DNA from: Spirochaetota bacterium
Lineage (GTDB): Bacteria > Spirochaetota > Brachyspiria > Brachyspirales > JACRPF01
Reading direction: 5' to 3'
DNA length: 64,000 nucleotides
NCBI GenBank assembly: GCA_016214035.1
Contig: JACRPF010000020.1
Coordinates: 318,800-382,799 of the forward strand
Each line of letters begins with the position of its first letter. The first letter of the stretch is position 1. Under the pieces are notes generated by a model that saw nothing but the letters and a program-made list of their open reading frames with translations, searched no databases and was not told the DNA's origin. A program made the translations under genes and the position numbers. Below are positions 7,217 through 21,472 of this stretch, one piece after another.

Positions 7217-8476
7217 ATGAAATTATGTTTTCTTGCATCCTGGGATTTTAGCAAAGTGTCATTATACCGTATTCTTCGGTATAACAAAATACTTGTGAAT
7301 ATTGCCGAAGAAGCAGTCGTTATCGGAGCCACCTGCAAATTTTTTGATTCGACACTCGACCTATCCGATTTTTATCGTCGAAAAGAGCATTTGCAGTACG
7401 ACGGAATCATTTTTATGCTTGGGTGGGGATGTAGAGAGCACGAACGAATATGTCACCGCATTGAGCTTCAAGTCCCCTCGGTCAATATTATGCTCGATTC
7501 TCGATATCCTAATAGAAATTATGTCGGCTGCGATGATGCAGGTTCAATGCAGGCGCTTCTCGTCCATCTCGTTTCAGAAGGATTTCAACGCATCGGTCTT
7601 TTCAATCACAGCAATCAGGCGCATACGCACCTGCAATACCGCACCTATAATGATTTTATTCGCCGCAATGGACTTCCACTGCGCCAGGAATGGGTAGCCG
7701 GTTTTAACCTGAAGACAAATTTATTCAAGCGCACGTTACATAAATATGTGATCAACAAAAATTTTCAGAATAGGAATTCGTTATTTGACGCTTATATGAA
7801 CGTACCTGAACGTCCGGCAGCTATAATATTTTCCCTCGACTTGTGGGCGATACATTTTTGCGAATATGCAAAAGAACGTGGCATTCGAATCCCCGAGGAT
7901 ATCGCCATTGCGACATTTGAAAGCGGAACCCATCAGGAGGTCGAGAATAATTTTCTGACTATCGCGCGCGAGGATCATGTGTATATTGCAAAGACCGGCG
8001 TTCGCCTATTGAATGAAATTATTCAAGGACGGCGCGAACGATACAACAATAGTATCCTCTTCCCACCAGATATCATTATACGGAAGTCGTCACTTAAGAA
8101 TTCATACGACAAGGTTCAGACCGAGCGAGATATATTCAAACATCATGTTGCATCTTGTATTCACCAGTACTACGCGGACAATGAACTGAAAAAAACAATC
8201 TGTACTCAACTGGGTATTTCCAAAGAGTATTTTTTCAAAAAGTTCAAGATTGTGTTCGGGAAGGATTTTTCTTCACATATTATCGCATACCGGTTAGAAA
8301 AAGCCGCATATTATCTTATGCACACAATCACCCCCATCACCGAAATCCTTTTCAATTGCGGTTTCAATAATAGTCAGAATTTCAATTATTCGTTTCGGAA
8401 AAAATATGGTTGTACACCGAAGGAATATCGAAAAAGGAAAAGCATCCGGAACCATCAAGTACTTCACAATGCATGA
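7217..8476 (+). CDS. XylR-type transcription regulator: LacI-like sensor plus AraC HTH
   Basis: A 419-residue regulator. Residues 1 to about 285 resemble a periplasmic-binding-protein fold of the LacI/XylR type, with 'YDGIIFMLGWG', 'VGCDDAGSMQALLVHL', 'GFQRIGLF' and 'IRIPEDIAIATFES'. Residues about 310-410 form a double helix-turn-helix AraC domain, with 'LGISKEYFFKKFK', 'ITEILFNCGFNNSQNF' and 'FRKKYGCTPKEYRKR'. Enterobacterial XylR has the same layout and activates sugar catabolism genes when sugar binds. No sugar operon lies next to this gene, so its target and ligand are unknown. The gene has the lower GC of the flanking patch. Confidence 0.85.
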   Translation: MKLCFLASWDFSKVSLYRILRYNKILVNIAEEAVVIGATCKFFDSTLDLSDFYRRKEHLQYDGIIFMLGWGCREHERICHRIELQVPSVNIMLDSRYPNRNYVGCDDAGSMQALLVHLVSEGFQRIGLFNHSNQAHTHLQYRTYNDFIRRNGLPLRQEWVAGFNLKTNLFKRTLHKYVINKNFQNRNSLFDAYMNVPERPAAIIFSLDLWAIHFCEYAKERGIRIPEDIAIATFESGTHQEVENNFLTIAREDHVYIAKTGVRLLNEIIQGRRERYNNSILFPPDIIIRKSSLKNSYDKVQTERDIFKHHVASCIHQYYADNELKKTICTQLGISKEYFFKKFKIVFGKDFSSHIIAYRLEKAAYYLMHTITPITEILFNCGFNNSQNFNYSFRKKYGCTPKEYRKRKSIRNHQVLHNA

Positions 8477-8750: not shown

Positions 8751-9824
8751 TCAACCGCCGAGAAGTGCTATGCGGGAGAAAATATAGGAAAGAGACTCTT
8801 CTTTAATAACATGTCTGAGAAACGGCGTCCCGTCACCGCCGCCGATTTTTCTTTTTTTCCCGGGCAGACGTGACCGCCACTTTCTTGTGCCGTCGGTGCG
8901 CTGCCAGGTGACAAGGCCGATGCGCTCGGCGTCAAGTTCCAGACAGGTGCAGCCGCGCTTGCCGATGGGCGAACCCGGATTGAAAAGACAGGGAACGAGC
9001 AGGTTCTCATGGTAAAGACTTGCGACAGATTCCCCCCGCTGTTTCCGCCGCGCCACGGCTTCGTTCATCTCCTGTTTAATGGCGGCAATGCGCACGGCGG
9101 TCTTTCTGCGTTTTGCCTCGGCCATCTTCGGGTATTGCCTGCAGAGGAGCTCGATCTCGAAACGAAGCGAATCGATCTTCGACATCGACTCGAACAGGGG
9201 GCGATGGGTGTGTCCGATGATGGAGAGGATACGCTCCTGCTGGGCGAACGCGTAAACGTGCTTTTCCACGAAAAAACGTTTCGTGCTGCTCTGAGCGACC
9301 GTGATATTTTTGATTCCGAGCGGTGTGGCCAGATAACGAAGGACAAAGGCGGCAACCGCATTGTATTCGCGGTCATATCTGCTCATCTGATGACCGTGAA
9401 AGATGAATATCTCTCCATGCGCGTGGCTCAGGCGAAGGCTCTCGCCCAGCGGATATGCCGGCGCGCCCGCTCCCGTGTATGTGAGCTCAAGGTCGTGGTT
9501 ACCGACTATCTTGCAGAGCTTGCCGGCGTTGTGAAATGAATCAAGTATACGATAGAACTCGGGCCACGTGCGGCGTATATCGCGTTCCTCAAAGCGGTAC
9601 AGGTCCTCGATGTCGCCGTTGAGCACGAGCGTGAAGCCCCGTTTCAGATAATAACGGAGCGAATAGAGAACCATCTCCGCGTTCTGGCGGAAATCATCAC
9701 CGCGCTTTCCGTTACCGAGATGCAGATCCGACATGATGACCACGGGCCCCAGACGATCCAGATCGAGCCTTGGCGACGCCTGGTACAGGGCCTGGAGAAT
9801 GCCCAGACTTTCATCCGCTTTCAC
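8751..9824 (-). CDS. Calcineurin-like metallophosphoesterase
   Basis: A 357-residue protein with the complete di-metal phosphoesterase motif set: 'SDLHLG' (about 32), 'NGDIEDL' (about 70), 'GNHDLE' (about 115), 'FHGHQM' and 'IGHTHRP'. The family hydrolyses phosphomono- or diesters, and the layout is closest to UDP-diacylglucosamine-hydrolase-like or DNA-repair-like members. The substrate cannot be told from sequence. A Lys/Arg-rich insert (about 225-260, 'AEAKRRKTAVRIA') and a basic segment ('KWRSRLPGKKRK') are unusual and could bind nucleic acid or membrane. It starts with GTG and overlaps the stop of the upstream AraC-type gene by 4 bp (GTGA), so the two are co-translated. Confidence 0.85.
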   Translation of the reverse strand: MKADESLGILQALYQASPRLDLDRLGPVVIMSDLHLGNGKRGDDFRQNAEMVLYSLRYYLKRGFTLVLNGDIEDLYRFEERDIRRTWPEFYRILDSFHNAGKLCKIVGNHDLELTYTGAGAPAYPLGESLRLSHAHGEIFIFHGHQMSRYDREYNAVAAFVLRYLATPLGIKNITVAQSSTKRFFVEKHVYAFAQQERILSIIGHTHRPLFESMSKIDSLRFEIELLCRQYPKMAEAKRRKTAVRIAAIKQEMNEAVARRKQRGESVASLYHENLLVPCLFNPGSPIGKRGCTCLELDAERIGLVTWQRTDGTRKWRSRLPGKKRKIGGGDGTPFLRHVIKEESLSYIFSRIALLGG

Positions 9825-10693
9825 CGCGCTACACTCCGCGAATCCCTGATAGCATCACGCGGCGACATCTTTCTGTATTTTTTATAGATGCGCGAAAAAT
9901 AGAACGGGTCCTCGAATCCGAGCCGCTTTGCAATCTCGCGCACGTTGGGCGACGGCGCAGTCCTGAAATATGCGTCGGCCTTGCTTAACTTCATATCAAG
10001 CAAGGTTTCCTTGAAGCTCTTGCCGGTGGTACTTTTAAACAGATGCGATATCGTGGATGCGCTCTTGCCGGTGAGCGTTTCGATGTCTGACAGCGATATC
10101 GTCTTTTCGATGTTGGCTTTCAGATACTCAAGCGTCTTTTCAACCAGAAGGTTTCCCTTAAGCGACACCATGTTGCTCGAGACGATGTAGCGGACGATGA
10201 CCGAAAACAGACCGAGTATGTTCGAAAGATTTTTTTCCGGCACATACGGCAGCCGGTAGAACGCGGCGCGCAGTTCCTTCACCGCGCCGAATTTCCGTTT
10301 GTACTGTTTGAGGAGATGCGGCTGTATGCTGTCCGACGTCCTGAACTGTCCTATCATGATGAAACCGGCTATCTGCCCGTCCACGATTACCGGCATCACC
10401 GCCTCCATGAGCCCCGCATGACACTGATAGACCGCCATGCTTTTGGTCCGCGCCGATTCGGCGCACTTCTCGCGGTCCATGCGCGTGCAGAAGCTCAGCC
10501 GGTCGAGTTTTGTCTGTATGAGCCGGCAGTATTCGGCGCCGGAACGGTTCATGCCGGTGGTGAGCTCCTTGCCGTCGAACGAGAAAAAGGTGATCTTGAT
10601 GTTGAAGCAGGCGGCGAAGTAGTCGAGCACTTCCTGCACGTCGTTGCGGAGGATGATGTCTATTGCGCTCTTCATAGCGTGGGACAATTCCAT
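9821..10693 (-). CDS. PocR-domain AraC-family transcriptional regulator
   Basis: A 290-residue protein. Residues about 12-175 form a PocR ligand-binding domain with the typical Cys cluster ('EYCRLIQ', 'SFCTRMDREKC', 'YQCHAGL') and the PAS-like strand 'DGQIAGFIMIGQF'. Residues about 190-285 carry the AraC double helix-turn-helix ('SLSDIETLTGKSASTISHLF', 'IAKRLGFEDPFYFSRIYKK'). PocR domains sense small metabolites such as hydrocarbon derivatives or sugars. The gene is divergent from the ten-gene amino-sugar operon starting at 10812, and 118 bp lie between them, so it is the prime candidate for that operon's regulator. Its stop overlaps the phosphoesterase start. Confidence 0.88.
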   Translation of the reverse strand: MELSHAMKSAIDIILRNDVQEVLDYFAACFNIKITFFSFDGKELTTGMNRSGAEYCRLIQTKLDRLSFCTRMDREKCAESARTKSMAVYQCHAGLMEAVMPVIVDGQIAGFIMIGQFRTSDSIQPHLLKQYKRKFGAVKELRAAFYRLPYVPEKNLSNILGLFSVIVRYIVSSNMVSLKGNLLVEKTLEYLKANIEKTISLSDIETLTGKSASTISHLFKSTTGKSFKETLLDMKLSKADAYFRTAPSPNVREIAKRLGFEDPFYFSRIYKKYRKMSPRDAIRDSRSVAR

Positions 10694-10811: not shown

Positions 10812-11906
10812 ATGGAAAACACGTTACAAACGAACGAAAAAGCACTTGCCCGCGACCTGGATCAGACCGGCATGCAGGCGGCGCTTGCAGATATCGCGGT
10901 GCAACGCGGTATTGCCGCGGCGCTCGATGCGCTCTACGACTGGTCATTCGCTGTCGGCTACATCACCCGTGAAAAACTCGAAGACAATAAGCGATACCGG
11001 TATTTCGATGAATCCACCGGCGTGACTTTCCGCACACAGATAAACTATGCCCGCAGCAATTACTCGCCGAAACCGCTCACCGGAGTGAACATACCGAAAC
11101 TCCATTGCCCCATCTGCTACGAAAATGTAGGTATACCGGGCAAAGAGGACCTTCGGGTGTTCCGTTTCGACCTCGCGCCGTCGCGGACGTTCTTCGCACA
11201 GCTCACGCCGTTCCCGCTCTTTCCGTATCACTATGTGCTCATCGACATGCAGAAGCGCCCGATGATAATGGAACGGCAGAGCGTACAGGACCTCGTAGAC
11301 TTCATCACGATGTCGCCGGGATATACCGGCTGCTCGAACAGCGATGTGGAATGGGCCGGCGCGTCGGTTCTGGTACATCATCATTATCAGGTATTCAAAG
11401 GGCTGTCGCTGCCGATTATGGAAGCTTCCATAATACCTGAATACAGCGGACGTGCGAAAAAGAGCGGACATGCGGTGTCGTACGGCCTCTTGAACTATCC
11501 GATAGCGACATGCCGCGTTTCATCGGCCGATGCCGCAGCATTCACCGATGCGTGCGGCGATGTGATTGCCGCATGGAAAAAACAGCTACCGGGAAAGAAC
11601 ACCTGCAATCTCACCGTCGTCCGTGAAAACGGTATGTGGACGGCGCATATCATTTTCAGAAATCCGGATCATCGTACGCCGGGACATCTGACAAAAATAA
11701 AAAGCGAAGGTGTCGGCATCATCGAGGTAGCCGGCGAGGGGATTTATCCGGTGCCGAAAGGACCGGAAGAAAAAGAACTCTGGCGCATGATAGATGAAGA
11801 GGGTCTGTCGGTCATCAAAGGTGTTATAGAAGGAAACAATCCTGTTGCGCGTTCTGATTTCAAAAAGCTTAACTCGCTTATCGGAGACGCCGTATATGGT
11901 TCTTGA
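10812..11906 (+). CDS. HIT-superfamily (GalT/GDP-galactose phosphorylase-like) nucleotidyltransferase
   Basis: A 364-residue protein. A 'HCPIC' motif (98-102) suggests a metal site as in GalT-like enzymes. 'FPLFPYHYVLID' and 'SVLVHHHYQ' (His 189-191, Gln 193) match the HIT-fold core in which a His next to Gln forms the nucleotidyl-enzyme intermediate. 'VRENG.WTAHIIFRN' is the second half of the fold. It resembles DUF4922/plant VTC2-like members more than classical GalT. Inference from the operon: it swaps a nucleotide onto a hexose- or HexNAc-1-phosphate made by the kinase at 16251 and feeds the epimerase at 12760. It is the first gene of the operon. The start at 10812 is the only ATG near the conserved region, and its AAGGGG lies 16 nt upstream. 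Confidence 0.7.
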   Translation: MENTLQTNEKALARDLDQTGMQAALADIAVQRGIAAALDALYDWSFAVGYITREKLEDNKRYRYFDESTGVTFRTQINYARSNYSPKPLTGVNIPKLHCPICYENVGIPGKEDLRVFRFDLAPSRTFFAQLTPFPLFPYHYVLIDMQKRPMIMERQSVQDLVDFITMSPGYTGCSNSDVEWAGASVLVHHHYQVFKGLSLPIMEASIIPEYSGRAKKSGHAVSYGLLNYPIATCRVSSADAAAFTDACGDVIAAWKKQLPGKNTCNLTVVRENGMWTAHIIFRNPDHRTPGHLTKIKSEGVGIIEVAGEGIYPVPKGPEEKELWRMIDEEGLSVIKGVIEGNNPVARSDFKKLNSLIGDAVYGS

Positions 11907-12741
11907 TTGTCATATCCATATCAGTTCATCCGATACTCCAAACGGTGCGCTGCTGAAAGAGAATATGAAAAAGGCCGGAGTTGACGGCGGCGCACTGCTT
12001 TCAATACCGCCGGCATCGTTCGCAACACATGCGGGAAAGGGATTTGATGCGAAGCTGTTTTCCTGCGACGCAAGACTCGACAACCTTTTCGCATGGACGA
12101 ACGGCAATGAACGGCTCTATCCGTTTTACTGGATCGATCCTTCGGCACATGGTGCACGACGCGAAGTGACGCGCGCAGCATCACGCGGTGTTACCGGTTT
12201 CAAGGTCATCTGCAACAGCTTTTACCCCGATGAACGCAGCGTCATGAAGGTGTTCCGCGACATCGCGGAGACCGGACGGCCGATACTGTTTCATTCCGGT
12301 ATACTCTGGGACGGCGAACCGTCGGGCAAATACAACAGGCCGGTACGTTTTGAATCACTCCTCACGATACCGAAATTACGGTTCGCGATGGCGCATATAT
12401 CCTGGCCGTGGTGCGATGAACTTATCGCCATGTACGGAAAGTTCTGCCACGCGAGAAAAATCCGCGGCGACAATGCGTCCGAGCTTTTCATCGACTTCAC
12501 ACCGGGCACACCGCCGATATACCGCGAGGAAGCGCTCCGCAAAGTGTTCACGGTTGGCTATCCGGTAAACGACAATGTACTTTTCGGTACAGACAGCACC
12601 GCCGGAAACTACAGCATCCAGGGCTCGTTACAAACACGCACGCGCGACAACGGTATTTACCGGAAGCTGAAACTTCCGAAACAGACGACAGCAAAGATAT
12701 ACGCGGATAATTTCCTGCGGTTCATAGGTCAAAGCCGGTAA
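11896..12741 (+). CDS. Amidohydrolase-2 family metal-dependent hydrolase
   Basis: A 281-residue TIM-barrel protein. The metal-binding 'DCHIHIS' opens the protein, followed by 'GFKVICNSF', 'RPILFHSGI' (His of strand 5), 'RFAMAHISWPW' (His of strand 6) and 'NVLFGTDST' (catalytic Asp of strand 8). The family covers decarboxylases and lactone or amide hydrolases. In this operon a sugar-lactone or amide substrate is likely, for instance a product of the neighbouring dehydrogenase, but nothing in the sequence fixes it. The ATG at 11896 overlaps the previous stop by 11 bp, which implies translational coupling. Confidence 0.75.
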   Translation: MVLDCHIHISSSDTPNGALLKENMKKAGVDGGALLSIPPASFATHAGKGFDAKLFSCDARLDNLFAWTNGNERLYPFYWIDPSAHGARREVTRAASRGVTGFKVICNSFYPDERSVMKVFRDIAETGRPILFHSGILWDGEPSGKYNRPVRFESLLTIPKLRFAMAHISWPWCDELIAMYGKFCHARKIRGDNASELFIDFTPGTPPIYREEALRKVFTVGYPVNDNVLFGTDSTAGNYSIQGSLQTRTRDNGIYRKLKLPKQTTAKIYADNFLRFIGQSR

Positions 12742-12759
12742 ACGGCACAAGGAGCGGGT

Positions 12760-13695
12760 ATGGCAAACGTAGTGGTAACCGGCGGCGCCGGTTTCATCGG
12801 CAGTCACATTGTGGAGGAAAGCGTAAAACACGGCGACACGGTGACGGTGTACGACAATCTGCATTCCGGATATATGAAGAACATCGAACCGTTCATGAAA
12901 TCAGGCGTGCGTTTCGTGAAAGGCGACATCATGGATGAACGGAAGATGGTGAAGGTCTTTGACGGCGCGGACACGGTGTATCACCTCGCGGCGCTCATCA
13001 GCGTTCCGGAATCGATGCAGAAAAAAACAGATTATGTGCGCGTGAACACGATAGGCATACTCAATGTGCTCGAGGCGGTGCGGAAGGCCGGAGTCTCGAA
13101 CGTGGTGCATTCATCGTCCGCGGCGGTATACGGCGACAATCCTGTTGTACCGAAACGCGAGAACATGCTGCCCGAGCCCAAATCCCCGTACGCGGTGACC
13201 AAACTCGACGGCGAATATTACTGCACGATGTATAGAAAGGAATACGGCATCAACGCGACCGCGCTCAGATATTTCAACGTGTTCGGCCCGCGTCAGGACC
13301 CGAAATCGCAGTACGCGGCGGCGATACCGATATTCGTGAGCAAGGCGGTAAAGGGCGAGGATATCACCATATTCGGCGACGGCGAACAGACGCGGGACTT
13401 CGTATACGTGAAGGACGTGGCGCAGGGCAATATGCTCGCTGCACGCACCGGCGGCGACGTGTTCAACGTGGCCTGGGGCAAAAAGATAACGGTGAACGAT
13501 CTGGCGAAAAAGATCATCGCCATCACGGGATCGAAATCGCGCATCGTGCATCTGGCGGAACGGCCGGGCGACATCAAGCATTCCGTGGCCGACAATAAAA
13601 AGATAGTCAACGAGCTCGGGTTCACGCCGACAAGCGATCTTGATAAGGGTTTAGCAGCAACCGTAGAGTACTTCGTTAACCTTCATAAGAAATAA
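12760..13695 (+). CDS. UDP-glucose 4-epimerase-like extended SDR
   Basis: A 311-residue NAD-dependent epimerase/dehydratase. The dinucleotide motif 'GGAGFIGSH' (about 8-16), 'YHLAALISV', catalytic Ser in 'HSSSAAVYG', the 'YAVTK' Tyr/Lys pair, 'RYFNVFGPRQDP' and 'GDGEQTRDFVYV' are all present. This is the GalE/WbpP group, which interconverts UDP-Glc/UDP-Gal and often UDP-GlcNAc/UDP-GalNAc. Context suggests UDP-HexNAc epimerisation between the nucleotidyltransferase at 10812 and central metabolism. AAGGAG precedes the start. It lies 18 bp after the amidohydrolase gene. Confidence 0.85.
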   Translation: MANVVVTGGAGFIGSHIVEESVKHGDTVTVYDNLHSGYMKNIEPFMKSGVRFVKGDIMDERKMVKVFDGADTVYHLAALISVPESMQKKTDYVRVNTIGILNVLEAVRKAGVSNVVHSSSAAVYGDNPVVPKRENMLPEPKSPYAVTKLDGEYYCTMYRKEYGINATALRYFNVFGPRQDPKSQYAAAIPIFVSKAVKGEDITIFGDGEQTRDFVYVKDVAQGNMLAARTGGDVFNVAWGKKITVNDLAKKIIAITGSKSRIVHLAERPGDIKHSVADNKKIVNELGFTPTSDLDKGLAATVEYFVNLHKK

Positions 13696-13709
13696 CTAAG
13701 GAAACAATA

Positions 13710-15077
13710 ATGGCATCCACCGTTTTCACACAGAAAAAACCGGCGATAGGAATCCGCTGCGTGCATCTTGACCTCAAGGGGCTCCCGCCCACGCGTGCAC
13801 GCCTCCTCTCGCTCCTCGACACATTCGCGACTATGCGCATCAATGCGGTGCTCGCCGAATGGGAGGATATGTTCCCGTGGACGGTAGACCAGCGGTTCCG
13901 CTGCGAGACGGCGTACACCCCCGCCGACATACGCGCGTTCGCCGCGAAGGCAAAGCGGCTCGGTATCGAGATAATTCCGCTCGTGCAGTGTCTCGGCCAC
14001 ATGGAAACGGTGCTCAGGCATCGCGAGTACATCAATCTGCGCGAAATACCCGAGAACAACGATGTGATCAATCCGCTTGCGGAAGGCGCGCGTGAACTCA
14101 TCGAGCGCATGGTCGACGATGTTCTGGCGCTTATCCCCGACGTAACGCATTTCCATCTCGGCGGCGACGAGGCGTGGACGTTCGGCAGTCACCCCGACAC
14201 GAAGGCATACATCAAAAAACACGGAGCGGGTGCGCTTTACATGAAGCATGTGGGGCCGATACTCGACAAGCTCAACGCGCGCGCCATACGCCCGATACTC
14301 TGGCATGACATGATGACGCACTGGGACAATGCTGCGCTCAACGACATCAAAAACCGCGCCGACCTCTGCGTCTGGGGATACGGCGATGATCCCCGCAAAA
14401 CAAAACATCATTTTGCTGTGTCACATATCAAACGGTTCAAAAAGACCGGCATAGCGATGTGGGCGGGCACCGCATACAAGGGCGGCGACGGACTCGACCG
14501 CGATCTGCCCGACCTCGACCGGCGCGAGATGAATATGCTCGCGTGGGGCGAAGTTGCACATGAGTACAAGATGAAGGGAATCATCATCACCGCATGGAGC
14601 CGCTACAGCACGAACCAGATGCAGGTGTCGCCCATCGACGGAGCACTCGACGCGCTCGCGCTCGGGGCCATCATCGCGCATGACGGAAAAAAGCCGAAGG
14701 ACCGCACGGCGTCATGCATGGCGCTCCTCAAGCGCGCGGAAGAAGACAAACGCTTCGTCACCTGCCGCGACCTGCTTGCAAAATTGTCGTCACAGCGCAT
14801 GGCCGCATGGGAGAATGTGCGCATCGTACGCGGCTATATCGTCTGCGCAACGGACGATATACGGCGCGCGGGAAGTTATCACGCGGGAATGCACCTGCAG
14901 CATCTTACCGGTCACGTGGCGAACTGTATCGCGATAGCACCGAAAATACAAAAGGCGTTCACGGGACTCATCCCGGCGATATGGGTGGAGCGCTATCTGA
15001 ATGAACGCATACGTCCCCTCCAGGATGAGGTTGCCGTTATCAGAACGATGTTCAATAAAATTAAAAAGGCGGAATAA
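13710..15077 (+). CDS. GH20 beta-N-acetylhexosaminidase, hexosaminidase D-like
   Basis: A 455-residue GH20 catalytic domain without signal peptide or accessory domain. 'IEIIPLVQCLGHME' and 'FHLGGDEAW' carry the family signature, and the Asp-Glu pair in the latter is the substrate-assisted catalytic dyad. 'LWHDMM' and 'GVAWSRY'-like aromatic motifs ('IITAWSRYS') line the -1 site. The pattern resembles the HexD branch of GH20, an intracellular exo-hexosaminidase group with a preference for GalNAc. The product should be free GlcNAc or GalNAc in the cytoplasm, the substrate of the kinase at 16251. AAGGAAAC precedes the ATG, and the stop abuts the next start. Confidence 0.82.
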   Translation: MASTVFTQKKPAIGIRCVHLDLKGLPPTRARLLSLLDTFATMRINAVLAEWEDMFPWTVDQRFRCETAYTPADIRAFAAKAKRLGIEIIPLVQCLGHMETVLRHREYINLREIPENNDVINPLAEGARELIERMVDDVLALIPDVTHFHLGGDEAWTFGSHPDTKAYIKKHGAGALYMKHVGPILDKLNARAIRPILWHDMMTHWDNAALNDIKNRADLCVWGYGDDPRKTKHHFAVSHIKRFKKTGIAMWAGTAYKGGDGLDRDLPDLDRREMNMLAWGEVAHEYKMKGIIITAWSRYSTNQMQVSPIDGALDALALGAIIAHDGKKPKDRTASCMALLKRAEEDKRFVTCRDLLAKLSSQRMAAWENVRIVRGYIVCATDDIRRAGSYHAGMHLQHLTGHVANCIAIAPKIQKAFTGLIPAIWVERYLNERIRPLQDEVAVIRTMFNKIKKAE

Positions 15078-15078
15078 T

Positions 15079-16242
15079 ATGAAAACGATACGACTCGGTG
15101 TCATCGGTGCGGGCGGACGCGGACATATATCACATCACGCGCACAAACCGGAAAACGGCGTGGAACTGGTTGCGGCCGCGGACGTTTCCGACAAACCGCT
15201 CGACGAATTCAAACAGAAGTTCGGCCCGAAGGCGTTCGTCACGAAGGATTACCATGAGCTCCTGAAACGCGACGACATCGACGCGGTGTTCGTGACCTCG
15301 CCGGACTTCATGCATGAGGAACAGGGTGTTGCGGCACTCGCCGCGGGAAAAGCGGTATACTGCGAGAAACCGCTCGCGATAACGCTTAAAGGCTGCGACC
15401 GGCTGCTCGAAACCGCCAGAAAGAACCGCACGAAACTATTCGTCGGCCACAATATGCGCTACATGGCGTTCGTGAGAAAGATGAAAGAGATCGTCGACAG
15501 CGGCGCCATCGGACGTGTGACCACGGCCTGGTGCCGGCATTTCATCAATTACGGCGGCGACGCGTATTTCAAGGACTGGCATTCGGAACGAAAATATTCC
15601 ACGGGACTGCTGCTCCAGAAAGGCGCGCATGACATCGACGTCATCCACTGGATCTGCGGCGGTTATTCGAAACGCGTGACGGCGCTCGGCGCGCTTTCCG
15701 TCTACGACAAGTGCGCCCGGAGAAGTCCCGATGTCCCGGGTGTGAAATCGTGGCACGACACGAACTGGCCGCCGCTGGCGCAGAAAAACATGAGCCCGAT
15801 CATCGACGTTGAGGACCAGACGATGATGCTTATGGAACTGGACAACGGCATTATGGCGTCGTATCAGCAGTGTCATTACACGCCGGAGCCGTGGCGTAAT
15901 TATGTGTTCATCGGCACCGAGGGACGCATCGAGAACTTCGGCGATCACGGCGAGCATTGCGTGATACGCCTCTGGAATAAACGCGGACCCTACCGCGAAA
16001 AGGGCGACGTGGAATATCCGGTGTCACACGAGAGCGAAGGACACGGCGGCGCCGACCCGCGCATTGTTGAGGAGTTCGTCCGTTTCGTCAAGGACGGCGG
16101 AAAGACCTACGCGTCTGCGGTTGCCGCGCGGTACAGCGTTGCCGCCGGTTATCTCGCCACCATGTCGCTTCGCGAAGGCGGGAAGCCGTATGTGGTCCCG
16201 CCGGTAAAAAAAGACATCGTCAGCTACTTTGACAATCTGTGA
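15079..16242 (+). CDS. Gfo/Idh/MocA-family sugar oxidoreductase
   Basis: A 387-residue protein. The N-terminal Rossmann domain shows 'LGVIGAGGRGHIS' (about 6-18), 'DIDAVFVTSPDFMHEEQG' and the hallmark 'YCEKPLA'. The C-terminal alpha/beta domain has 'KGAHDIDVIHWI' with the catalytic Asp/His pair and 'GIMASYQQCHY'. Such enzymes oxidise or isomerise sugars and inositols with NAD(P), and GH109 members use the same fold to cleave alpha-GalNAc by an NAD-dependent route. The latter is worth noting here because the operon handles HexNAc, but a plain dehydrogenase is equally possible. The start lies 1 bp after the GH20 stop. Confidence 0.85.
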   Translation: MKTIRLGVIGAGGRGHISHHAHKPENGVELVAAADVSDKPLDEFKQKFGPKAFVTKDYHELLKRDDIDAVFVTSPDFMHEEQGVAALAAGKAVYCEKPLAITLKGCDRLLETARKNRTKLFVGHNMRYMAFVRKMKEIVDSGAIGRVTTAWCRHFINYGGDAYFKDWHSERKYSTGLLLQKGAHDIDVIHWICGGYSKRVTALGALSVYDKCARRSPDVPGVKSWHDTNWPPLAQKNMSPIIDVEDQTMMLMELDNGIMASYQQCHYTPEPWRNYVFIGTEGRIENFGDHGEHCVIRLWNKRGPYREKGDVEYPVSHESEGHGGADPRIVEEFVRFVKDGGKTYASAVAARYSVAAGYLATMSLREGGKPYVVPPVKKDIVSYFDNL

Positions 16243-16250
16243 GGCCCGCA

Positions 16251-17360
16251 ATGGAAGCTACCGCATACGATTTGCCGGCAATCTGCAGACAATTTCAGAT
16301 GACCGGAACGGTTGCCGGGGCAGAACCCTACGGCTCGGGGCACATCAACGCGACCTATCTGGTCCGGACAAAAGAGAGCGACGCCTACGATTATATACTC
16401 CAGCGCGTCAACCATAACGTGTTCAAGAACGTCCCGAACCTCATGGATAATATACTCCGGGTGACCACGCATGTGCGCGGCAAGCTCGCAAAAATACCGG
16501 GAGCGAATCCCGACCGCGAAACACTCACCGTTATACCGGCAAAGACCGGGAAGCCGTATCATCAGGAAACTGACGGAACGTTCTGGCGTATGTATATCTT
16601 TGTGGAGAACACGAAAAGCTACGACATCGTTGACAGTCCGACGAAAGCATTTGAGGGCGGCAGAATGTTCGGTCGTTTTCAGAAAATGCTCTTCGATCTT
16701 CCGGGCGGCCCGCTTCATGAAACGATACCTGAATTCCACAACATCGCGATGCGGCTTGAACGATTCCGCGAGACGCTGGCACGCGACCCGAAGCAGCGTG
16801 CAGCATCGGTTCGTAATGAAATTTCATTCGTGGAGAAACGCGCCGAAGAGATGCAGACGATACTCAGGCTCGGACGGGACGGAAAGATACCGCTGCGTGT
16901 GACGCACAACGACACGAAGTTCAACAACGTGCTGCTCGACGCGAACGACAAGGGCCTCTGCGTCATCGATCTTGACACGGTGATGCCGGGCTACGTGCAC
17001 TTTGACTTCGGCGATTCGCTCCGCACGGTGACGAACACCGCTGCAGAGGATGAGAAGGACACGTCGAAAGTTTCCATGAATATCGACCTGTTCGAGGGAT
17101 ATGCGAAGGGATATCTGTCCGAGGCGAAGGATTTCCTCACGCCTGTCGAGGTGGACAATCTCGCGCTCGCGGCGCGTGTGATGACATTCATCATCGGGCT
17201 CAGTTTCCTCACCGACTACATCGACGGCGATAATTATTTCAAGATAATATTTCCCGAGCACAACATCCAGCGCACGCGGGCGCAGTTCAAGCTCCTGTCG
17301 AGCATGGAAGAACAGTACGACGAGATGCGGAAGATCGTAGCCGCAAACACGAAACGGTGA
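16251..17360 (+). CDS. N-acetylhexosamine 1-kinase-like kinase
   Basis: A 369-residue aminoglycoside/choline-kinase-fold enzyme. 'GSGHINATYLV' is the nucleotide loop, 'YILQRVNHNVF' carries the ATP-binding Lys/Arg region, 'RVTHNDTKFNNVLLD' is the catalytic loop with Asp and Asn, and 'CVIDLDTVMPG' is the metal-binding Asp motif. 'FDFGDSLRT' follows, as in NahK/LnpB of bifidobacteria. That enzyme phosphorylates GlcNAc and GalNAc at C1. In this operon it would act on the sugar released by the GH20 and hand HexNAc-1-phosphate to the HIT-fold transferase. The stop overlaps an alternative GTG of the next gene by 4 bp. Confidence 0.82.
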   Translation: MEATAYDLPAICRQFQMTGTVAGAEPYGSGHINATYLVRTKESDAYDYILQRVNHNVFKNVPNLMDNILRVTTHVRGKLAKIPGANPDRETLTVIPAKTGKPYHQETDGTFWRMYIFVENTKSYDIVDSPTKAFEGGRMFGRFQKMLFDLPGGPLHETIPEFHNIAMRLERFRETLARDPKQRAASVRNEISFVEKRAEEMQTILRLGRDGKIPLRVTHNDTKFNNVLLDANDKGLCVIDLDTVMPGYVHFDFGDSLRTVTNTAAEDEKDTSKVSMNIDLFEGYAKGYLSEAKDFLTPVEVDNLALAARVMTFIIGLSFLTDYIDGDNYFKIIFPEHNIQRTRAQFKLLSSMEEQYDEMRKIVAANTKR

Positions 17361-17365
17361 GAAAC

Positions 17366-18004
17366 ATGAAACTGTCAGTGCCCTATTTCGGAACAAAACG
17401 GATGAACGCGAAATCCGCGGCTCGCGCACTTGACGCATTTCCGCGCACCGCGATAGCACAGACGCCGTGGGCGGAGTTCCCGTACAAACCGGAAACGACA
17501 TTCACGCTGGCGTACGGCGACGATGCGTTCTACATCAGATATAATGTCCGCGAAAAGGAACTGCTCGCGCTGTACCAATATCCGAATCAGCCGGTATGCA
17601 AGGACAGCTGCGTTGAGTTCTTCGTCTCCCCCGACGGAAAATCATATTACAACATCGAGTTCAACTGCATCGGCGCCTGTTACATCGCCGTGGGCCCCGA
17701 CCGCGCGCACCGGCGCATGATTCATCCAAAGCTCGTGGCAACCGCTGATGTATTTTCGACACTCGGGAAGAAGCCCTTCGAACAGCGCACCGGTGACTTT
17801 ACCTGGGAACTTACGGCAGTCATACCGTATGCGATAATGGCGAACCCGGCGGGAGCACCGTCACGCGGGAAAACGTTCACCGCCAATTTCTACAAGTGCA
17901 GCGACGAGATGACAACGCCGCATTATCTGACGTGGAACAACGTGGGCACGATAGAGCCCGATTATCATCAGCCGGAATATTTCGGCGAGATAGAATTTTT
18001 CTGA
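17366..18004 (+). CDS. CBM9-like carbohydrate-binding protein
   Basis: A 212-residue single beta-sandwich domain of the CBM9-like type. 'DDAFYIRYNVRE', 'CKDSCVEFFVSP', 'YYNIEFNCIG' and 'TWELTAVIPY' follow the strand pattern of the family, and 'ANFYKC' and 'GEIEFF' close it. No signal peptide is visible, unusual for a glycan-binding module, so it may work in the cytoplasm. It could bind the amino-sugar oligosaccharide or act as an unknown enzyme of the same fold. GGTGAG lies just before the ATG at 17366. Confidence 0.7.
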   Translation: MKLSVPYFGTKRMNAKSAARALDAFPRTAIAQTPWAEFPYKPETTFTLAYGDDAFYIRYNVREKELLALYQYPNQPVCKDSCVEFFVSPDGKSYYNIEFNCIGACYIAVGPDRAHRRMIHPKLVATADVFSTLGKKPFEQRTGDFTWELTAVIPYAIMANPAGAPSRGKTFTANFYKCSDEMTTPHYLTWNNVGTIEPDYHQPEYFGEIEFF

Positions 18005-18015
18005 GGAGATCACGC

Positions 18016-19236
18016 ATGCTGAAAGGAAACGCAATTGTCGGACAGTCCGGCGGACCGACGTCGGTGATCAACGCAAGTCTCGCGGGCGTCATCGACGGCG
18101 CAAAGAAATTCGCGGGCATAAAAAAACTCTACGGCATGAATTACGGCATCGAGGGATTCATGCAGGAACGGCTCATCGATCTTTCCGCGCAGCCGGCGGC
18201 CGTGGTTAAAGGGCTGCGTATGACGCCGTCATCGTCGCTCGGGTCGTCACGGCACAAAGTGAAGGAAGAGGATTTTCCGCGCATCATGGAAGTACTCAAG
18301 AAATACGACGTGCGCTATTTCTTTCTCATCGGCGGCAACGACACAATGGACACGATAAACCGCGTGGAACAGTACTGCCGGAAGAACGGCTATGAACTCA
18401 CCGGCGTGGGGATTCCGAAGACCGTGGACAACGACCTCTTCGGCACCGACCACACCCCCGGCTATGCGTCGGCGGCGCGCTACAATGCGCTGTCCGTGAT
18501 GCAGGGCGGCATTCTCGCGCGCGACATGCAGCGCGTGGACAAGTTTTCCGTATATCAGACCATAGGTCGCGATGCGGGCTGGCTTGCTGCGGCGTGCGCG
18601 GCGGGAAAAACGGACGAGGCGTCGGCCCCGCATCTCATCTACACGCCGGAACTTCCGTTCAGCAAAGAGGATTTCCTTAAGGACGCGGCGGCATGTGTGA
18701 AGGAATACGGCTTTGTATCCGTTGTCTGCGGCGAGGGCATCAAGTATAAGGACGGCACACCGGTGAGCGCGTCACGGACGAAGGATAAATTCAACAATAC
18801 GGAATTCGGCGCGATGGGCGGTGCGAGCGCGGCGCTTAATCTGCACGCGATGCTGCGCGAGGCGTATGGATGGCGCGGGGAGTTTCAGATTACCGAATCG
18901 CTCATCATGTGCGCGGCGGACCGCGGGGTCGCAAACGATTTTTCCGAGGCGTACCGCTGCGGCATCGAGGCGGTGAAGCTCGCTTCGAAGGGCGAGAGCG
19001 GTTATATGGTGACAATGAAACGCATTTCGAACAAGCCCTACCGCATATCGTACGAAAAAGCGAAGCTCTCCGATGTGGCGGTGAAGGCGAAGCCGATGCC
19101 GCTTGATTATCTTACCGCTGACGGCAATTTTGTGAGCAAAAAGTTCTTCTCATACCTTTCCCCGCTCATCGGCGACATGCCGGGATATGTGCGGCTGAAA
19201 CAGAAGTTCGCGAACAAATCGAAAAGTATCGACTGA
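18016..19236 (+). CDS. pfp: PPi-dependent 6-phosphofructokinase
   Basis: A 406-residue group-A phosphofructokinase. 'GQSGGPTSVINA' binds the phosphodonor, and 'GGNDT' (106-110) replaces the GGDGS of ATP enzymes. 'PKTVDND' (134-140) holds the Lys typical of PPi users and the catalytic Asp, and 'GRDAGWLAA' follows. The enzyme converts fructose 6-phosphate and PPi to fructose 1,6-bisphosphate reversibly, saving ATP. Its place between the kinase/GH20 genes and the deacetylase/SIS genes suggests that fructose 6-phosphate is the exit point of the operon's pathway. GAGGAG precedes the start. PPi use is inferred from the two residues named. Confidence 0.85.
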   Translation: MLKGNAIVGQSGGPTSVINASLAGVIDGAKKFAGIKKLYGMNYGIEGFMQERLIDLSAQPAAVVKGLRMTPSSSLGSSRHKVKEEDFPRIMEVLKKYDVRYFFLIGGNDTMDTINRVEQYCRKNGYELTGVGIPKTVDNDLFGTDHTPGYASAARYNALSVMQGGILARDMQRVDKFSVYQTIGRDAGWLAAACAAGKTDEASAPHLIYTPELPFSKEDFLKDAAACVKEYGFVSVVCGEGIKYKDGTPVSASRTKDKFNNTEFGAMGGASAALNLHAMLREAYGWRGEFQITESLIMCAADRGVANDFSEAYRCGIEAVKLASKGESGYMVTMKRISNKPYRISYEKAKLSDVAVKAKPMPLDYLTADGNFVSKKFFSYLSPLIGDMPGYVRLKQKFANKSKSID

Positions 19237-19246
19237 GGAAACAACA

Positions 19247-20020
19247 ATGGAATTCAACAAATCAGCAGTAGTCATTCACGCACATCCGGACGATACCGAG
19301 GCGTTCTGCTCGGGGACGCTTAAACACTTGAAGGACAAGGGCTTCAGCATCGCCATAGCAACGATGACCGCGGGCGGCATGGGCGGCATAGGCATGAGTG
19401 AACAAAAAACCATTGCAGTGAGAAAAAAGGAGGCCGCGAAAGCGGCCGCGGTGCTCGACGCTCCATATCACTGTTTCGGCGGACGGGACGGATATCTTTT
19501 TGACACCGAGGCGCTTCGCGTCGCCGTCATTGATTTTGTCAGAAAGCACAAAGCGGGCGTGGTACTCACGCATCTGCCGTTCGATTACCACAGCGACCAC
19601 CGCACCACCGCGCAGATTGTGGAGGCCGCCGTGATGCTCGCATCGCTCCCGAGCGTTCCATGCAGGGCGAAACCGCTCGAGGTGACGCCGCTGCTCTATC
19701 ACACGGCACCGCTCGGATTCTCGGATCCATTGGGCAATCCTATTGCCGAACCGCATTTCTTTGTTGATATCACGAAGACTATCGACACAAAAATGGACAT
19801 GCTCGCGCATCACCATTCGCAGATAGAACTCATGCGCGTGATGCACAAGATGCCGAATTTTTTCGACGAGATGAAAAAATACAATATCGACCTCGGGAAA
19901 ATCGCCGGTGTGAAATATGCCGAATGTTTCTGGCAGCACCTGGGCGGCGGATTTCAGAAAGATCCGCTCCTGCAGCGTGAACTCGCGGATGTCATACGCA
20001 AACTGAAAAAGATAAAATAG
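19247..20020 (+). CDS. PIG-L family N-acetylglucosaminyl deacetylase
   Basis: A 257-residue Zn-dependent LmbE/PIG-L deacetylase. 'HAHPDDTE' (about 11-18) gives the His-Asp-Asp Zn/catalytic motif, and 'YHSDHR' (about 117-122) supplies the third Zn ligand. The fold is complete and cytoplasmic. Known substrates carry GlcNAc: GlcNAc-inositol, GlcNAc-malate, GlcNAc-PI and diacetylchitobiose. Here it probably removes the acetyl group from a HexNAc derivative, doing the work of NagA, which is absent from the operon. It is followed after 13 bp by the SIS gene, which fits a deacetylation-deamination pair. Confidence 0.83.
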   Translation: MEFNKSAVVIHAHPDDTEAFCSGTLKHLKDKGFSIAIATMTAGGMGGIGMSEQKTIAVRKKEAAKAAAVLDAPYHCFGGRDGYLFDTEALRVAVIDFVRKHKAGVVLTHLPFDYHSDHRTTAQIVEAAVMLASLPSVPCRAKPLEVTPLLYHTAPLGFSDPLGNPIAEPHFFVDITKTIDTKMDMLAHHHSQIELMRVMHKMPNFFDEMKKYNIDLGKIAGVKYAECFWQHLGGGFQKDPLLQRELADVIRKLKKIK

Positions 20021-20033
20021 ACAGGAGCACATC

Positions 20034-21050
20034 ATGAATCTTACCGATAAAAAATATACCGCATATGCACTCGCGAAAGAAATGCTTCAGACGGCCGATG
20101 TGGTGAAAAAGTTCGACCCCTTGTGCGCGGATGATTATGCACAACGCGCCAAAAAGATGGAACGGCTGTTCTTCACCGGCGAAGGTTCGAGCAGGATATT
20201 TCCCGCAAAACGCGCGATGACCGCGGCGATGCGGCTCGGAAAACTCCCGCCGATGGCCACCGACGGCGCGACACAGGCGCTTGAGTATGACCTGTCACGG
20301 CACGCGGTGTTCGGCGCGTCGAACTCGGGCAAAACAAAGGAGCTGGTGCGCCTTTTCACCAAACTCAAAAACGAAAAGCATCCGGCATATTTCGGGCTGG
20401 TGGCGAACAAAGAAACGCCGGTTGAAGCGCTTTCGCACAAAACGCACGTATTGTCCTGCGGCAAAGAGGACGCCGTTGCCGCGACCAAATCCGTCGTCGA
20501 GCAGGCGCTCTTTTACGATGCGCTCCTGCATGCGATGAGCGGTAAAAAAATGGCGGACCTTTCCGCTGCTTCACAGGCGATAGAAAAGGCGCTCACCCTG
20601 TCGATCGATCCCGAGATCACCAAAAAACTCGCCGCGGCGAACATGCTCTATTTCGCGGGCCGCAACACCGGCGTTGCCGAGGAATTGACGCTCAAGACGA
20701 ACGAGATAACGCGAAAAAAGTCTGACTATCTTGAAGGCACGTACGCAGTGCACGGCATTGAAGAGGTGATGAATCCGAACGAAGCGGTCATTATCATCGA
20801 ACCGTTCGCGTCAGAAGAAGAGAAGTTCGCCGAATGCCTCGTAAAAGGCGTTGGCATGACGGTCATCGCCATCGCGTCGCGGCAGACGAGTTTCCCGACG
20901 GTGATAATCCCGGATGCGGGTGAATATGCCGAATATGTTGAGCTCTGCGCTGGATGGAATCTGCTCCTTGAAACGGGCATTGCGCTCGGCATAAATCTTG
21001 ACAAGCCGGTGCGGGCGAGAAAAGTGGGGAATGAGTATAGTGCGGGGTGA
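20034..21050 (+). CDS. SIS-domain sugar isomerase/deaminase (GlmS/AgaS-like)
   Basis: A 338-residue double-SIS protein. The first domain shows 'TGEGSSRIFPAK' and the phosphosugar-binding 'GASNSGKTKELV'. The second shows 'MLYFAGRNTG', 'YLEGTYAVHGIEEVM' (the position of the catalytic Glu-His in GlmS/AgaS relatives) and 'AVIIIEPF'. Members convert amino-sugar 6-phosphates to keto sugar phosphates, with ammonia release in AgaS/FrlB-like deaminases. As the last gene of the operon it would supply fructose or tagatose 6-phosphate to the PPi-PFK. It has no glutaminase domain, so it is not GlmS. AGGAG precedes the ATG. Confidence 0.75.
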   Translation: MNLTDKKYTAYALAKEMLQTADVVKKFDPLCADDYAQRAKKMERLFFTGEGSSRIFPAKRAMTAAMRLGKLPPMATDGATQALEYDLSRHAVFGASNSGKTKELVRLFTKLKNEKHPAYFGLVANKETPVEALSHKTHVLSCGKEDAVAATKSVVEQALFYDALLHAMSGKKMADLSAASQAIEKALTLSIDPEITKKLAAANMLYFAGRNTGVAEELTLKTNEITRKKSDYLEGTYAVHGIEEVMNPNEAVIIIEPFASEEEKFAECLVKGVGMTVIAIASRQTSFPTVIIPDAGEYAEYVELCAGWNLLLETGIALGINLDKPVRARKVGNEYSAG

Positions 21051-21082
21051 GGGTTCGCGCGTTATGCGCGGGAAGAAATGTC

Positions 21083-21254
21083 TTTCTCGAAATCGTCACA
21101 TAACTCGCGTATTGCTGGATCGTTTTGATTGAGCTTATCCGCTAATAAGCATATCCTTTTTTAATCGAATGCCGTCTTTGCTCAAACAAATGTGCCGCTT
21201 TCTCGAAAGACATTTCTCCCCTTCGCCAAGCGCGGTGATGGGTGAAAGTGATTG
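21083..21254 (+). repeat. Miniature repeat element, copy A
   Basis: About 170 bp that recurs at 21297-21472. The unit is bounded by inverted ends: GAAATGTCTTTCTCGAAA at its left (from 21075) and the near-complement TTTCTCGAAAGACATTTC at its right (21199-21216). Inside, CTTATCCGCTAATAAG can form a small hairpin. There is no reading frame of note. Size and inverted ends resemble a MITE- or RUP-like element. Confidence 0.7.
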
Positions 21255-21296
21255 AGCGTGAATGGTGGCCGCTGAATGTGCTCGGGAATAAATATA

Positions 21297-21472
21297 TTTC
21301 TCGAAATCGTCACATAACTCGCGTATTGCTGGTACGTTATGATTGAGCTTATCCGCTAATAAGCATATCCTTTTTTAATCGAATGCCGTCTTTGCTCAAA
21401 CAAATGTGCCGATTTCTCGAAAGACATTTCTTCCCTTCGCCAAAAGCACACGGTGATGGGTGAAAGTGATTG
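21297..21472 (+). repeat. Miniature repeat element, copy B
   Basis: Nearly identical to copy A, with a handful of substitutions and short indels. It is bounded by GGGAATAAATATATTTCTCG on the left and the near-complement ending CATTTCTTCCC on the right, and followed by the same CTTCGCCA...GGTGATGGGTGAAAGTGATTG tail seen after copy A. It is a tandem direct duplication with a spacer of about 40 bp. Confidence 0.7.

Follow-up and report, generated by a model that had tools for sequence, protein, structure and literature searches.

The window analysed here is a 64,000-nucleotide stretch of a Spirochaetota genome (5.2 Mb, 98% complete), and its subject is an operon of ten tightly packed, co-directional open reading frames on the + strand, running from an ATG at 10812 to a stop codon at 21050. 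Intergenic distances range from -11 to +18 bp, with the best-placed starts of the fifth and eighth genes at ATG 15079 and ATG 18016, respectively. In order, the genes encode a GalT-like HIT protein, an Amidohydro_2 hydrolase, a GalE-type epimerase, a GH20 glycosidase, a Gfo/Idh oxidoreductase, a NahK kinase, a CBM9_2 protein, a pyrophosphate-dependent phosphofructokinase (PPi-PFK), a PIG-L deacetylase and a SIS-domain protein. The ten proteins were assigned to families by comparison with Pfam, NCBIfam and the PDB. By hydropathy analysis, all ten lack signal peptides and membrane segments, and the route they form therefore looks cytoplasmic.

Four of the genes could bring amino sugars into metabolism. 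Gene 4 (13710..15077) encodes a cytoplasmic GH20 beta-N-acetylhexosaminidase (PF00728, 8.8e-14; PDB 8qk1, 1.2e-33) with the GGDE catalytic motif. Gene 6 (16239..17360) encodes an N-acetylhexosamine 1-kinase (NahK) that matches the Bifidobacterium longum NahK structures 4wh1 and 4ocj at E = 1e-87 and retains the catalytic motifs HNDTKxNN and IDLDT. A member of the same family, BT4240 of Bacteroides thetaiotaomicron, is a 1-kinase that prefers N-acetylgalactosamine (GalNAc) and is required for growth on this sugar (PMC11992087). Gene 1 (10812..11906) is assigned to a short class-II GalT-type hexose-1-phosphate uridylyltransferase of the HIT fold from a match to PRK05270 (UDP-glucose–hexose-1-phosphate uridylyltransferase; 8.6e-28, partial and under the cut-off) and from motif alignment: it is colinear with Treponema class-II GalT (GalT2) over most of its length, at ~25% identity, and retains GxSxLxHxHxQ, which includes the HxHxQ site. 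GalY, a predicted GalT replacement (PMC5583593), was considered for this protein and ruled out, as GalY is an NTP_transferase and belongs to another family. A PDB sequence search with the HIT protein returned nothing meaningful. Gene 3 (12760..13695) probably encodes a GalE/WbpP-type 4-epimerase for UDP-N-acetylhexosamine (UDP-HexNAc); it is closest to PDB 6dnt (3.6e-73) and near WbpP and WbgU (~1e-58), which we take to be UDP-HexNAc epimerases. It has ERPGDIKHS in common with 6dnt, with Ser where E. coli GalE has Tyr299, presumably the specificity position, and its sequence is compatible with action on UDP-HexNAc.

The last three genes could provide an exit towards glycolysis. Gene 8 (18016..19236) encodes a PPi-type 6-phosphofructokinase (PFK) that scores 414.5 bits against the PPi subfamily PRK14072 (cut-off 273) and matches PDB 3k2q at 3.7e-78; its PKTVDND and GGND motifs, presumably a signature of PPi-type enzymes, align with those of 3k2q and 3hno. 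Gene 9 (19247..20020) encodes a PIG-L (LmbE) deacetylase (PF02585, 8.6e-26; 91.4 bits, cut-off 28.2) with the metal-ligand motifs AHPDD and, downstream, HSDH; its relatives in the PDB are TT1542 (3e-18) and diacetylchitobiose deacetylases (2e-16). Gene 10 (20034..21050) encodes a putative tandem-SIS amino-sugar-phosphate deaminase (PF01380; PDB NagB-II 8eol, 3e-6). Its structural model (pLDDT 70, segment 220–245 under 50) is predicted to have the tandem-SIS fold of the GlmS-isomerase/deaminase group: the first-ranked Foldseek match was the Pyrococcus furiosus glucosamine-6-phosphate (GlcN-6-P) deaminase 2cb0 (E = 3e-12), and GlmS isomerase domains and deaminases gave VIA Z values of ~19–22 (GlmS ~22). 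The protein scored under the cut-offs of the curated families NagB-II (31.6 of 430 bits) and GlmD (26.9 of 580 bits); it thus forms a separate branch, and we claim a like function for it rather than membership.

An earlier note on this DNA had described ten same-strand genes with gaps of 18 bp or less, a layout borne out here, and nearly all of its family calls hold. Its Leloir-like set of kinase, transferase and epimerase is supported by the matches of genes 6, 1 and 3, and its call of a PPi-type PFK by the PRK14072 score. In keeping with its proposal that a hydrolase replaces the GH112 phosphorylase, GH20 is present and none of the ten operon proteins matched GH112, a search confined to the operon and not extended to the rest of the genome.

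Conservation of the operon and of a three-gene exit

The operon is real and conserved, the same arrangement recurring beyond chance. The sole other genome of the host's family in the compared set (G001, another genus) carries all ten genes in identical order (locus L085), at 58–91% protein identity; the ten-gene order that the earlier note proposed to look for was thus found, with one insertion, a second Gfo/Idh paralogue. In a second Spirochaetota family the genes are rearranged (L086: Gfo/Idh, NahK, HIT, PFK, PIG-L, SIS, a CBM9-like match, a LacI-type gene and GalE). NahK, HIT and GalE were found linked in only three genomes. Two Bacteroidota clusters, L041 and L044, have the order NahK–PFK–PIG-L–SIS–CBM9 followed by a sodium/solute symporter, with HIT and GalE absent and, in L041, a GH20 gene in addition. 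Spirochaetota NahK sequences are scattered in the NahK tree (4 changes), the deep forks of which are unsupported, and NahK transfer between Bacteroidota and Spirochaetota is only suggested. Directly 5' of NahK in one Bacteroidota metagenome-assembled genome lies a gene for a cytidylyltransferase-like protein (L005:8851-9987, starting VFVTGCFDMLHSGH), which could be a different nucleotidyl-activation partner.

For a wider view of the exit genes, the SIS protein was searched in 393 Spirochaetota genomes and found in 21, with further examples from Bacteroidota. Of the 27 SIS loci with flanking sequence (21 Spirochaetota and 6 Bacteroidota), PFK is encoded at 24 and PIG-L at 24, which makes this exit far commoner than the linked NahK/HIT/GalE set. 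A number of these loci nearly duplicate each other (L041/L044, L121/L122, L123/L124 and L116/L120), which brings the count of independent cases below 27; even so, the linkage of PFK, PIG-L and SIS is far beyond chance neighbourhood. The PIG-L proteins fall into two subfamilies that are ~22% identical, 14 belonging to subfamily A, the window's type, and 10 to subfamily B. Of the ten SIS proteins that accompany subfamily B, nine lie on one branch (support 94/85), and a single swap of deacetylase type could therefore explain most of these pairings. Two distant PIG-L types have in any case been recruited to one PFK/SIS partner pair, which we count in favour of the catabolic route proposed below. 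Subfamily B genes are mostly followed by an aldose-1-epimerase gene (L114-L116, L118, L120-L124, L172).

The surroundings of the trio point to N-acetylglucosamine (GlcNAc)-type sugars: ROK kinases are the entry kinases at L130, L132, L121/L122 and L172, other trio loci are flanked by NagC/ROK-type regulators, L041 has its GH20 and symporter genes, and at L172 a canonical NagA (353 bits, cut-off 226) is encoded ~3 kb away. The trio mostly occurs without NahK, HIT and GalE, so the exit can be separated from the Leloir set. The earlier note had held that homologous clusters lacking the kinase–transferase–epimerase set would speak against its pathway; such clusters are what the trio loci show, but where a close relative of the complete operon occurs, the set is kept. 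That PIG-L pairs with a glucosamine-phosphate deaminase is independently supported by PRK02122, a protein in which NagB and PIG-L domains are fused and which, among 148 Bacteroidota genomes, passes its cut-off in 56; examples (L175:2276-4210 and L176:2154-4088) are named merely deaminase-like. No description of the PFK/PIG-L/SIS trio was found in the open-access literature, and this combination, recurrent in two phyla, is apparently undescribed.

A candidate route for N-acetylhexosamines

We propose that the operon probably serves the breakdown of HexNAc sugars in the cytoplasm, chiefly of GalNAc, along a route that ends in fructose 6-phosphate (Fru-6-P) and fructose 1,6-bisphosphate (FBP). 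Gene content, conservation, family membership and key motifs are as described above; all reactions, and their order, are what we infer from them. GH20 would release HexNAc inside the cell, and NahK would convert GalNAc and GlcNAc to GalNAc-1-phosphate (GalNAc-1-P) and GlcNAc-1-P. The GalT-like HIT protein would then catalyse the exchange UDP-GlcNAc + GalNAc-1-P = UDP-GalNAc + GlcNAc-1-P and GalE would turn UDP-GalNAc back into UDP-GlcNAc, so that the two together would convert GalNAc-1-P to GlcNAc-1-P with a catalytic UDP-sugar. GlcNAc-1-P would leave this cycle through deacetylation by PIG-L and the action of a mutase encoded elsewhere; deamination by the SIS protein would give Fru-6-P and NH3, and PPi-PFK would convert Fru-6-P to FBP. 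Since the HIT protein is probably an exchanger of the GalT type, the expected exit point is GlcNAc-1-P and not a UDP-sugar, which leaves the linear order of the earlier note, from UDP-HexNAc through its epimer to deacetylation, unsupported.

Genes outside the operon were assessed by targeted family searches of the host genome. The phosphohexomutase that the route needs could be a GlmM-type enzyme encoded elsewhere, which passes its cut-off; a second phosphohexomutase is also present. Either deacetylation would come first, giving GlcN-1-P for GlmM, or the mutase would act first, giving GlcNAc-6-P. GlmM natively interconverts GlcN-1-P and GlcN-6-P, which makes deacetylation at the 1-phosphate attractive, while the ROK-fed clusters and the NagB–PIG-L fusion suggest the 6-phosphate as the PIG-L substrate. 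A phosphosugar of one kind or the other is the most likely substrate. A more far-reaching proposal, which we advance only tentatively, is that PPi-PFK, PIG-L and SIS are a conserved, unnamed amino-sugar exit of Spirochaetota and Bacteroidota that, where NahK is present, takes GlcNAc-1-P directly to GlcN-1-P, with housekeeping GlmM supplying GlcN-6-P. If true, direct deacetylation of GlcNAc-1-P would be a phosphosugar route that skips GlcNAc-6-P, and would explain the fate of GalNAc-1-P in Leloir-type GalNAc users.

Several observations weigh against the catabolic route as a whole. The HIT protein scores under all curated family cut-offs, and its AlphaFold model (two input sequences; pLDDT 39) was unusable. 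The fold match of gene 10, from a model of moderate confidence, fails to separate deaminase from isomerase. Genes 2, 5 and 7 are without a clear step, and the operon has no transporter gene next to it. Physical linkage of NahK with the trio is confined to five loci (the window, L085, L086, L041 and L044); NahK and SIS co-occur in 6 of the 393 Spirochaetota genomes (NahK in 44, SIS in 21; ~2.4 expected), and only three of these six have them linked. Finally, the host genome contains one divergent NagA-like gene (167.9 bits, under the cut-off of 225.65) and three NagB-like genes (135–148 bits, under the nagB cut-off of 236.9). The earlier note's replacement of NagA and NagB by PIG-L and SIS is correct within the operon, but given these genes the PIG-L/SIS exit may be a parallel route, maybe not the sole one.

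Among the alternatives, it is conceivable, though unlikely, that PIG-L deacetylates UDP-GlcNAc and UDP-GalNAc, or free HexNAc, with the exit beginning ahead of the phosphosugar pool or apart from it. Its nearest solved relatives include the diacetylchitobiose deacetylases, which act on unphosphorylated substrates, and in the ROK-kinase clusters deacetylation could precede phosphorylation. Deacetylation of a UDP-sugar is, however, less likely because the GlcNAc-1-P formed by a GalT-type exchanger would have no use; deacetylation of a free sugar would bypass NahK, which acts on N-acetylated sugars; and the NagB–PIG-L fusions suggest a 6-phosphate substrate. It seems decidedly improbable that a single transcript carries two or more routes, NahK, HIT and GalE supplying UDP-HexNAc for glycan or cell-wall synthesis, and PFK, PIG-L and SIS serving a separate GlcNAc catabolism. 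The trio does usually occur without the Leloir set, and relatives of NahK or HIT occur without the trio, but three genomes, from two families, have retained the combination in varying gene orders, and NahK alone joins the trio in L041 and L044, next to the symporter (and to GH20 in L041). A galacto route, in which an AgaS-like SIS protein would deaminate GalN-6-P to tagatose 6-phosphate for phosphorylation by PFK, has in its favour that the SIS model also matches the AgaS-type tagatose-6-phosphate isomerases 3c3j and 3odp (Z ~20), but is very unlikely given that NahK yields 1-phosphates and not GalNAc-6-P, that HIT and GalE would be superfluous, that the best deaminase matches of the SIS protein are GlcN-6-P enzymes and that the trio is accompanied by ROK/NagC-type genes typical of GlcNAc.

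Other operon genes and flanking sequences

Gene 2 (11896..12741) encodes an Amidohydro_2 hydrolase (PF04909, 1.4e-08), a possible lactonase or deacylase. A PDB sequence search with it returned nothing meaningful; it is kept in L085 at 58% identity and was not found at L086. Gene 5 (15079..16242) encodes a Gfo/Idh/MocA oxidoreductase (PF01408/PF02894; best PDB match DgpA, 2e-25), for which a dehydrogenase or a redox-type glycosidase are candidate functions. Assignment to GH109, the redox alpha-GalNAcases, was not adopted, since the match to 2ixa (2.9e-12) covers only the Rossmann part and ranks below many dehydrogenases. The protein shares 91% identity with its counterpart in L085, compared with 58–84% for the other nine genes, unusually strong conservation for a gene with no assigned step. 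Gene 7 (17357..18004) encodes a cytoplasmic CBM9_2 protein (PF16011, 4.9e-59) whose gene recurs next to NahK or PFK/SIS in Spirochaetota and Bacteroidota (L027, L028, L030, L042, L053, L055, L060, L062, L064, L076, L077, L081 and L082). In many Bacteroidota (Pontibacter, Adhaeribacter, Rufibacter) it is the gene directly 3' of NahK, and at other loci it adjoins the PFK/SIS trio; this conserved partner is not known to have a role inside the cell.

Divergently upstream of the operon, on the - strand, is a gene for an AraC-type protein with a PocR domain (9821..10693; PF10114 PocR, 9.7e-34, plus HTH_18), an orthologue of which is kept at the equivalent place in L085; this protein is the probable regulator of the operon. 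Just upstream of this region, at 7217-8476, lies a gene for a XylR-like regulator of the AraC type, whose sensor domain resembles periplasmic binding proteins. After the operon, at 21065-21443, are two 165-bp copies of a repeat, 95% identical, 214 bp apart and with inverted termini. The genome has 25 matches to the repeat in total, most of the rest being 70–75% identical or partial; the repeat is a dispersed family resembling miniature inverted-repeat transposable elements or repetitive extragenic palindromes.

Relation to known amino-sugar pathways

The operon joins a known Leloir-type HexNAc entry to a recurrent, apparently undescribed PFK/PIG-L/SIS exit. The galacto-N-biose/lacto-N-biose pathway of bifidobacteria (lnpABCD) uses NahK, a GalT-type uridylyltransferase and GalE on HexNAc-1-P and UDP-HexNAc (PMC6668579). 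NahK recurs here, together with a putative GalT-type transferase and a putative UDP-HexNAc epimerase; unlike lnpABCD, the operon has GH20, a short, divergent relative of GalT2, a built-in PIG-L/SIS/PFK exit and no adjoining ATP-binding cassette transporter. With BT4240, essential for GalNAc use, it shares a cytoplasmic NahK-family kinase; the enzymes downstream of GalNAc-1-P are not described in that work (PMC11992087), and the operon supplies a nearly complete candidate set for them on one apparent transcript, with only the mutase encoded elsewhere. The succession of a PIG-L deacetylase and a putative SIS-type GlcN-6-P deaminase recalls the Dac–GlmD chitin route of Thermococcales, in which, as cited in PMC4101496, diacetylchitobiose is deacetylated and an exo-glucosaminidase is used; the operon differs in its GH20, 1-kinase and linked PPi-PFK. 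As in the classical NagA–NagB pathway, deacetylation would be followed by deamination to Fru-6-P. Neither NagA nor NagB is among the ten operon genes, however; the deacetylase (PIG-L) and putative deaminase (SIS, NagB-II-like) are unrelated to them, and a PFK is included. The PFK/PIG-L/SIS trio is a candidate, testable replacement for NagA and NagB that is currently missed by family-based annotation.

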